A program made the translations under genes and the position numbers. A stretch of 32,957 nucleotides of DNA from Kiritimatiellia bacterium. Its GTDB lineage: Bacteria > Verrucomicrobiota > Kiritimatiellia > UBA8416 > JABMPJ01. The stretch covers positions 1-32,957 of the forward strand of contig JADHWE010000027.1 of NCBI GenBank assembly GCA_016783675.1, read 5' to 3'. Numbering within the stretch: the stretch's first letter is position 1; each line of letters opens with the position of its first letter. Under the pieces are notes generated by a model. That model saw nothing but the letters and a program-made list of their open reading frames with translations. It was not told where the DNA came from and made no database searches. Positions 13,988 through 15,667 of the stretch are shown here, piece by piece.

Positions 13988-13998
13988 TCGAGGTGGTA

Positions 13999-14481
13999 AT
14001 GGGAAACTCGTCGGTAGACGTACGCGTGACGAACCAGGAGGCCGTGATCCGGGCCCGGGGCCGCATGACCTTTGTGGAGGCCCATCCGCTGCGCAAGTTC
14101 TGTGTGCGGATGATGGAGCAGGGCGTGAAGCGGTACATTCTGAATGCACAGCACTGCACCTCGATGGATAGTACCTTTATAGGCGTGCTAGCCATGGTGT
14201 CGCTGAAAGGCAAGGGGAGAGGTGTACGGGTTGAGATCTGTGGTGCTGATGACCAGGTCAGCGGCCAGATCCTTGGGCTCGGGTTGAAGCGAATTTTCCT
14301 GTTTCACGATCGCTGCGGCAGGCCGACGGGGGCCGGCACTGTTCTTGAAGAAGTCGGAGAGCGTGGCGAGGTGCGCGAGACCATGCTGGAGGCCCATGAA
14401 ACGCTGGCCGAAGCGGACGCAGAGAACGAAGAGCGCTTCAAAGACGTCCTAACCTACCTGCGTGAAGACGCATCGTCCTGA
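13999..14481 (+). CDS. STAS-domain (anti-anti-sigma-like) protein
   Basis: A 160-residue protein with an N-terminal STAS domain (about 1-110). The segment TSMDSTFIGVLAMVSLKGK matches the SpoIIAA/RsbV motif MDSxGxGxL, including the Asp-Ser that carries regulatory phosphorylation in the family. The expected glycine after DST is Phe here. The last 45 residues are acidic and helical (EAHETLAEADAENEERFKDVL), an extension beyond a minimal STAS protein. It is the likely substrate of the upstream PP2C phosphatase. ATG 13999 has GAGG 5 bases upstream; an in-frame GTG two codons earlier is less likely. The REP-transposase unit begins 22 bp after the stop. Confidence 0.85.
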   Translation: MGNSSVDVRVTNQEAVIRARGRMTFVEAHPLRKFCVRMMEQGVKRYILNAQHCTSMDSTFIGVLAMVSLKGKGRGVRVEICGADDQVSGQILGLGLKRIFLFHDRCGRPTGAGTVLEEVGERGEVRETMLEAHETLAEADAENEERFKDVLTYLREDASS

Positions 14482-14517
14482 GTTCGGAGCATGATCGTGG
14501 GGAGGAGATCTTCACCT

Positions 14518-14537
14518 CCCACGGGCAAGCCCGTGGG
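14518..14537. repeat. REP palindrome, upstream copy
   Basis: CCCACGGGC-AA-GCCCGTGGG: a perfect 9-bp stem with a 2-nt spacer. A degenerate partner hairpin (CTCGCCC...GGGCGGGAG) follows at about 14553-14571, making a paired BIME-like arrangement. Confidence 0.8.
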
Positions 14538-14615
14538 GGCTGAAGCAGAGGGCTCGCCCGTGGGGCGGGAGATGAGTGGGTGGGATAGATAGTGACGGTG
14601 GATGGGGAGATTGGG

Positions 14616-15506
14616 ATGCGTCGTGGTGGGGAGGATGCCCCCATCGACCTTGCGTCGATGGAGCAGAAGATCCGGGAATTGGCGAAGCCGCGTCCCATCT
14701 ATACCCCGAAGAGCGTCCGCAAGGTTCACCATCTCCGCTATGACTGGACCGGCTGGCTCTCCGATCAGACACCTTTCCCACAGACCACCCCCGATGCGAT
14801 CAATGCCTGTACTGATGCATGGGAACGGGATGGGCTCGCATTGGCTGAGTTCCGTGTGCACAACGACCGTGTCCAGGCTCTTTTCGATGCCCAGCCTGAT
14901 GTTAGCCCCGTGGTTTGTACAACACGTGCCAAAGGGCGCTTGCAGCACGCACTGAGGCAGGCGGGTACCCCGGTGAGTTTCAGCCGAAAGGTCTCCTTTC
15001 GCTCGCTTGGCGAGAACGTCGATCGCACAGTCGAGGGGTATGTCAGGAAGCAGGTAAGGAAGGAGGGGTTCGTCGATCCGCGCTACGTTGCCAAGATGAA
15101 GGCGTTCACGATGGAGGATGAATCAGTCGCACTGACCGAGCCGGTTGAGACAGCGAGGGGGCGCTATTGGTATGGCCTGCACTTGGTGGTTGTGATGGCC
15201 GGGCGACGGCGGTTGGTTGACTACGAACTGATGGGCACGATTCGCGACACGTGCCTGGCGATTGGACGCAAGAAAGAGTGTGGTGTCAAGGCTGTGTCGG
15301 TGATGCCGGATCACGTCCACGTGGCGCTTAAGGGGAATATTGCGCTGAGCCCCGAGGAGATTGCGCTGGCGTTCCTCAACAACCTGGCGTTCGTGATGGG
15401 GCGCAACCGGGTTTGGAAGGATGAGTACTACGTGGGAACGTTCAGCGAATACGGAATGGATACAATCCGCGACCTCTTTGATCGCTTAGGCGTACAGGGA
15501 TCTTGA
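14616..15506 (+). CDS. REP-associated tyrosine transposase (Y1/HUH, IS200-like)
   Basis: A 296-residue protein. The C-terminal part (about 180-296) carries the Y1 transposase signature: the HUH metal-binding motif MPDHVHVAL with H233 and H235, and downstream tyrosines in DEYYVGTFSEYGMD (Y271/Y272 and nearby), one of which should be the nucleophile. Such enzymes nick single-stranded REP DNA. The first ~175 residues are an unusually long N-terminal region for a RAYT, with segment FSRKVSFRSLGENVDRTVEGYVRKQVRKEG. ATG 14616 with GGGGAG 6 bases upstream is preferred; a GTG at 14592 is also possible. REP copies on both sides in the expected orientation support assignment as a RAYT rather than a stand-alone IS200 transposase. 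Confidence 0.82.
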   Translation: MRRGGEDAPIDLASMEQKIRELAKPRPIYTPKSVRKVHHLRYDWTGWLSDQTPFPQTTPDAINACTDAWERDGLALAEFRVHNDRVQALFDAQPDVSPVVCTTRAKGRLQHALRQAGTPVSFSRKVSFRSLGENVDRTVEGYVRKQVRKEGFVDPRYVAKMKAFTMEDESVALTEPVETARGRYWYGLHLVVVMAGRRRLVDYELMGTIRDTCLAIGRKKECGVKAVSVMPDHVHVALKGNIALSPEEIALAFLNNLAFVMGRNRVWKDEYYVGTFSEYGMDTIRDLFDRLGVQGS

Positions 15507-15509
15507 CCT

Positions 15510-15529
15510 CCCACGGGCAAGCCCGTGGG
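15510..15529. repeat. REP palindrome, downstream direct copy
   Basis: The same CCCACGGGC-AA-GCCCGTGGG hairpin as at 14518-14537, in the same orientation and with the same GATCTT leader. It begins 3 bp after the transposase stop codon. Confidence 0.8.
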
Positions 15530-15572
15530 GGGGAAGAGAAGGAGGAAGCGCTAGGTGAAGCGCAGGACGTCC

Positions 15573-15592
15573 CCCGCGGGCTTGCCCGTGGG
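15573..15592. repeat. REP palindrome, inverted copy
   Basis: CCCGCGGGC-TT-GCCCGTGGG forms the same stem with one G-U pair. Its flanking GGAAGATC shows it is inverted relative to the other two copies, giving a head-to-head REP pair downstream of the transposase gene. Confidence 0.75.
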
Positions 15593-15667
15593 AACGGAAG
15601 ATCTCCCTCAGGAGAAGAAGAGGATCACCGACCCGTACAGGTGAGCGACAGACCCGCCGCACGGCGA

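Follow-up and report, generated by a model that had tools for sequence, protein, structure and literature searches.

The window analysed here, that is the whole stretch of 32,957 nt, is contig JADHWE010000027.1 of assembly GCA_016783675.1 from a Kiritimatiellia bacterium, whose own genome (2.6 Mb, 71.6% complete) is referred to as G000. Between a STAS-type gene and rnfE it carries a transposase gene framed by REP hairpins, which were scored with R1, a covariance model trained on 30 REPs from the genus. The features of the locus are the following:

13993..14481, + strand: STAS-type ORF (label of a first-pass annotation), upstream neighbour and boundary of the unit; 78% identical in genome G271
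14505..14539, - strand: REP 1 (outer left), an exact palindrome, R1 46.9 bits; foot AGATC, hairpin CCCACGGG-CTTG-CCCGTGGG
14550..14564, no strand: degenerate half REP GGGCTCGCCCGTGGG, from the repeat search
14616..15506, + strand: gene of the two-domain Y1 transposase (ORF, homologue alignment, PF01797 at 53.5 bits)
14639..14674, + strand: REP 2, inside the 5' coding sequence, R1 48.0 bits, also found by pattern search
14697..15113, + strand: N-terminal Y1 domain (alignments, Pfam on N halves, N-half model)
15129..15503, + strand: C-terminal Y1 domain (PF01797 at 41.4 bits, profile positions 7-115 of 121; alignment)
15497..15531, - strand: REP 3, R1 45.7 bits and sequence
15571..15605, + strand: REP 4 (outer right), R1 45.6 bits
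15668..16345, - strand: rnfE, downstream neighbour and boundary of the unit (ORF); 99% identical in G271 and 97% in G307

The probable start of the transposase gene at ATG 14616, which gives a product of 296 aa, was assigned from the aligned ATG in two homologous loci (L005 and L006); the frame is open from GTG 14592 and contains an alternative ATG at 14658.

A search of the whole 33-kb window with R1 returned exactly four full REPs, with scores of 45-48 bits and E <= 1.4e-11, arranged around the gene in the layout < > gene < >. Their consensus is a hairpin, CCnnCGnn-CTTG(n)-nnCGnnGG, accompanied by the foot AGATC. REP 2 consists of CCATCGACCTTGCGTCGATGG and AGCAGAAGATCC, with the hairpin at 14641-14661, and is translated as APIDLASMEQKIR. 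It is also present in the congener G271, and in a 64%-identical homologue (L006) its stem displays a compensated change (CCAGCGAC...GTCGCTGG). At the opposite end, the stop codon of the transposase gene (TGA, 15504-15506) sits between the AGATC foot and the hairpin of REP 3. An identical four-REP order was found at one homologous locus (L012), and the same order with one extra upstream repeat at two more (L005 and L010), the remaining loci showing fuller or partial layouts. At the locus L019 of G268, five upstream hairpins (1203-1473) recur downstream in the same order (2249-2514), and the entire REP array forms a direct repeat around the gene.

The first-pass annotation of this DNA had described three REPs enclosed by terminal inverted repeats. 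The repeats themselves were confirmed, as the direct copies (14507-14539 and 15499-15531) show 97% identity over 33 nt, the third copy (15571-15603) is inverted, and the left outer 10-mer, GGAGATCTTC (14504-14513), is the exact reverse complement of the right one, GAAGATCTCC (15597-15606). All three REPs are present, but the total is four, the copy on the + strand at 14639-14674 having been overlooked. The outer 10-mers were rejected as ends of a transposon, since they represent the AGATC feet of REP 1 on the left and REP 4 on the right, and such feet are carried by nearly every dispersed REP of the family. The repeats of the locus are real, yet they are not transposon ends.

The REP family and its association with the gene

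When G000 was searched for the palindrome of the locus, as the first-pass annotation had proposed, its exact form (up to 2 mismatches) was recovered at this locus only, and variable-stem relatives were found elsewhere. The conclusion that REPs do not occur in the rest of the genome was rejected, because the REP stem co-varies and a fixed palindrome is too strict a pattern. Once stem variation was allowed, the family proved to be dispersed in G000, whereas the first-pass annotation had named a lack of other copies as the finding that would speak against it. R1 recognised at least 33 REPs in G000, four of them at the locus and thus at least 29 dispersed, together with at least 57 in G271, at least 65 in G307 and at least 52 in G295; all of these counts are lower bounds, as the best 150 candidates were scored per genome. 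The congener G217 returned no R1 match among its best 150 candidates.

With the pattern CCNNCGNNCTTG(N)NNCGNNGG, G000 yielded 22 matches and the reversed control 1; the corresponding figures were 42 and 5 for G271 and 29 and 2 for G307. At the four stem pairs left free by the pattern, complementary bases filled 78 of the 88 cells of G000, compared with a mean of 34.8 and a maximum of 49 after shuffling, and unconstrained stem positions paired in 109 of 116 cells in G307 and in 139 of 168 in G271. In the 30-REP alignment 99.1% of the cells pair, with a covariation score of 0.478 compared with 0.118 +/- 0.021 after shuffling, and 48 two-sided stem changes were observed against 16.1 expected. The AGATC foot, which lies outside the search pattern, occupies a fixed place 3' of the hairpin, a few nucleotides off the stem, with 78-97% conservation per position in 32 REPs; read on the CAAG strand it becomes a 5' foot, GATCT. 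The REP stems of the two-domain homologues are unlike one another in sequence. Two distant members of this group, L022 and L023 (genomes G187 and G093), are flanked by another repeat family, GTGAGTCCCG-CTTG-CGGGGCGAGCGGGGATCC, also centred on CTTG.

Larger arrangements of REPs were observed as well. A compact REP pair of 64-68 bp, built as hairpin-foot-hairpin with a shared central AGATCT foot, recurs at many loci with up to 93% identity; an example is L077:1472-1539 (G000:C75:26798-26861), and many copies are present in G271 and G307. Its orientation is opposite to that of the pairs at the gene, and it may be the unit that spreads. Moreover, MITE-like elements of about 190 bp, bounded by REPs with the feet inward and having a strongly folded body, were detected at G000:C24:4565-4753 (L039), G271:C8:28632-28824 (L049) and G271:C8:95161-95349 (L053). 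An end-to-end alignment of two of these elements shows 71% identity, and folding of the initial 135 nt of the G000 element as ssDNA gave z = -6.1.

In order to compare the distribution of the repeats with that of the gene, 388 genomes of the phylum were surveyed, and a homologue of the transposase (E <= 1e-3) was detected in 28. Of the 28 gene-bearing genomes, 15 exceeded the control by at least 19 REP hits, as did 2 of the remaining 360 (Fisher p ~1e-17, the genomes not being phylogenetically independent); with an excess of at least 10 the numbers rose to 16 and 11, respectively (p ~3e-14, under the same dependence). A profile search of the REP-bearing genomes devoid of the gene returned zero full-length homologues. 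Three fragmented MAGs of 86-88% completeness (G307, G286 and G291) contain many such REPs with the transposase gene undetected, which would reflect either orphan REPs or an assembly gap. Two other Y1 genes of G000, both single-domain (on C13 and C88), were considered as owners of the REPs and discarded, as no REPs were found near either of them. Since the REP family is dispersed with stem covariation and REP-rich genomes are associated with the gene, the gene and its repeats behave like a RAYT/REP system.

Two Y1 domains in one chain

The whole protein matched PF01797 (Y1_Tnp) with 53.5 bits (cut-off 23), and the Pfam assignment fell on its C-terminal part. When seven N halves were searched alone against Y1_Tnp, two remained without a match, and the alignments obtained reached the last profile position, with an E value of 0.0066 for the protein of the window and, for L023, of 8.4e-5 at 23.1 bits. 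Direct comparison of the N and C profiles by hhalign returned an E value of 2e-6 over 111 columns. The AlphaFold model of the full protein (pLDDT 88.4, pTM 0.86) displays the Y1 order of elements twice in succession, the Tyr helix of the N domain being among its least certain parts (local pLDDT near 57-60). The N half modelled alone showed a pLDDT of 76.8, and its best 29 PDB matches were all IS200-type transposases, ranking above the E. coli RAYT (4er8); the full model also placed IS200 TnpA above 4er8. Judged from these alignments and models, the first 150 residues form a second Y1 domain, and the protein joins two Y1 domains of IS200/IS605 type in tandem. A search for homologues on plasmids returned weak IS200-type matches only, nearly all to the C half, a fold search among viruses gave nothing meaningful, and no description of a two-domain Y1 transposase was found in the open-access literature.

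The catalytic residues are divided between the two domains. The N domain retains the Tyr helix (YxxxQ), with Y150 (TAT, 15039-15041) and Q154 (CAG, 15051-15053), and has lost the HUH motif; the C domain retains PDHVH, with H241 (15312-15314) and H243 (15318-15320), and has lost the catalytic-Tyr position. Both half-sites, the Tyr/Gln of the N domain and the DHxH of the C domain, are kept in 27 of 27 aligned homologues. Residues K92, G93, G118, V125, Y128 and Q132 in the N domain and H175, R183, D218, H219 and H221 in the C domain are invariant in this set, numbered from M23 so that Y128/Q132 correspond to Y150/Q154 counted from the ORF start. The N-domain HUH and C-domain Tyr positions are unconserved in the same alignment, and the latter is often removed by a stop codon.

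IS200/IS605 transposases need two subunits, and in their dimers (IS608 and ISDra2) each active site combines the HUH motif of one subunit with the Tyr helix of the other, from which the tyrosine is borrowed. Because the two domains are fused and one HUH motif and the other Tyr are lost, one composite site would be left, which makes the protein a predicted pseudo-dimer within a single chain. An active site shared between two chains by domain swap may be formed instead. As in IS608 (Gln131), the Gln lies four residues past the Tyr; in IS608 a Gln at about this distance from the Tyr serves as third metal ligand (PMC6006769), so that both retained residues would belong to one catalytic helix. This fused, half-and-half transposase represents the main finding of the analysis.

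Inheritance and proposed role of the locus

The first-pass annotation had suggested that the element moved recently as a unit, and had recommended a search for further copies and a comparison of the STAS-rnf junction in relatives. Neither supported recent movement. G000 harbours this whole unit once only, and G271 has an orthologue with 84% identity at this rnfE junction, its RnfE being 99% identical. No clean empty site was found in the congeners; G217 is devoid of REPs and unit, but its rnfE neighbourhood differs. At the rnfE junction of G307, also a congener, a REP is followed by an array of partial REPs and then by the contig end. These tandem partial REPs (GGGCAAGCCCGCAGGGGGGCA...; L063, G307:C289 end) stand beside rnfE at the place where G000 and G271 have the gene. 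In G271 an extra ORF, missing from the window, is located between the STAS-type gene and the unit (L034:4907-5760). None of the loci in other genera shares the tested neighbours. The most parsimonious interpretation is that the unit was inherited vertically in this genus and was relocated or transferred over longer times.

One orthologous REP site is occupied by a compact REP pair in G000 and by a longer REP-bounded element in G307, and contains no recognisable REP in G271; another REP position is common to the three genomes. As far as sequence comparison can tell, the REPs themselves turn over, and we infer their movement from their dispersal and from the one variable orthologous site.

We propose, with a probability of about 75%, a REPtron-like locus in which a vertically inherited, single-copy, transposase-derived gene for a pseudo-dimer with one composite site serves the CTTG/AGATC REPs of the whole genome. 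The transposase would act on a genome-wide family of REPs that share this CTTG loop and the foot AGATC. The nucleophile (Tyr) and a metal ligand (Gln) would come from the YxxxQ motif of the N domain and the HUH metal site from the C domain, and the two halves would form one composite "trans" site, as two IS200 monomers do in the dimer, the reciprocal active site having been lost. The protein would bind single-stranded REP hairpins and cut near the foot, one strand at a time, so that REPs and REP pairs, rather than the transposase's own gene, would be copied or moved.

The gene might instead have been domesticated for another task on ssDNA, such as repair, replication-fork processing or REP-dependent regulation, with the REPs persisting as relics or regulatory elements that are no longer moved. 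Vertical inheritance, the several REP positions common to different species and the overlap of REP 2 and REP 3 with the gene's own ends are all consistent with this explanation, but the stems differ among homologues, REP copy number tracks the presence of the gene and congeners differ in REP content at one orthologous site. On balance, we consider domestication unlikely, although it deserves serious attention.

A canonical RAYT (TnpAREP, class 2) bearing an N-terminal extension of unrelated function would account for the single-copy gene, the inverted REP pairs around it and the dispersed REPs, all as in REPtrons. However, the NCBIfam RAYT profile (NF047646, REP_Tyr_transpos, corresponding to Quentin class 2) gave 18 bits where 80 are required, the REPs are devoid of a GT[AG]G foot, the extension is itself a Y1 domain holding the only catalytic-type Tyr, the catalytic Tyr of the C domain is absent in nearly all homologues, and 4er8 is a poorer match than IS200 TnpA to the full model and to the N half alike. 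This explanation is improbable, and the name "RAYT-REP unit" given by the first-pass annotation holds as to the REP/RAYT type of the locus but not as to a standard RAYT, given the profile score and the two Y1 domains.

There is likewise only a slight chance that the locus is an IS200/IS605-like insertion sequence, mobile by itself and having defined ends, which recently transposed as a unit, as the first-pass annotation had it. IS200 TnpA proteins do provide the closest profiles and folds, hairpins occur at both ends and the unit has different neighbours in other genera; nevertheless, G000 holds a single copy, the congener has it at the same locus with 84% identity, four REPs are present instead of one subterminal hairpin per end, the supposed terminal repeat is the foot of dispersed REPs too, and all 28 gene-bearing genomes contain only 1-3 matches each, with no multicopy spread. 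Finally, a broken transposase that is losing catalytic residues at random would fit the loss of half of the usual site from each domain, but is scarcely credible for a complementary pattern invariant in 27 diverse homologues, most of them intact ORFs, down to ~20% identity.

The proposed REPtron-like locus bears on the evolution of REP systems. It seems that the dimer was fused, that one of its two sites was discarded and that the REP family persisted. We find it rather probable that these proteins constitute an unrecognised lineage of asymmetric single-chain Y1 (HUH) transposases, each an IS200-type pseudo-dimer with one composite trans site and a REP class of its own (CTTG loop, AGATC foot), occurring in Kiritimatiellia and other classes of the phylum. 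If so, a second, separate path would lead from an IS200 transposase to a REP system, and REP processing would work with a single active site in trans. A single-chain enzyme would make either half-site open to separate mutation. The locus also extends REP systems, in a form whose foot and loop differ, to a poorly cultured bacterial phylum.

Comparison with known systems

The RAYT/TnpAREP systems of E. coli, Pseudomonas and Stenotrophomonas resemble the locus in that inverted REP pairs flank a gene present once per genome, the dispersed REPs/REPINs have a conserved foot, and there is specificity for a REP family; a REP within the reading frame, as in REP 2, also characterises Quentin subclass 2.4. 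RAYTs have one Y1 domain endowed with both HUH and Tyr, whereas here HUH and Tyr reside on separate Y1 domains, and their foot is GT[AG]G instead of AGATC. The E. coli RAYT is a monomer.

The transposases of IS608 and ISDra2 share the fold of each half and are its nearest relatives in sequence and structure, although the IS200 TnpA equivalog profile (NF033573) scored 51.3 bits against a cut-off of 55. IS200/IS605 enzymes are single-domain proteins of about 150 aa that dimerise to form two active sites, in contrast to the one chain, two domains and one predicted site described here; the elements are multicopy, with one hairpin per end, whereas this gene is present in single copy at a conserved locus with two REPs per side.

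The nearest described group, compared by description only, is class 3 of Quentin et al. 2018, rare Y1 proteins flanked by atypical hairpins that are high-copy in the host genome, with about 600 in Solibacter (PMC6006769). Their conserved region extends N-terminally to give a 155-aa profile, half of the members are apparently devoid of HuH or Y, and they were placed between IS and REPtron, with hosts among Planctomycetes, Acidobacteria and Proteobacteria (PMC6006769). Membership of the Y1 family and flanking hairpins of high copy number are common to class 3 and to our locus. The protein was not filed as class 3, as it is set apart by the description of that class: the foot reported there is CnGA, 5' of the hairpin, while on the CAAG strand we observe GATCT (foot AGATC), and class 3 is not described as containing two Y1 domains. 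The two groups may nevertheless be one lineage, and the class 3 members missing HuH or Y could represent two-domain split sites read as one domain.
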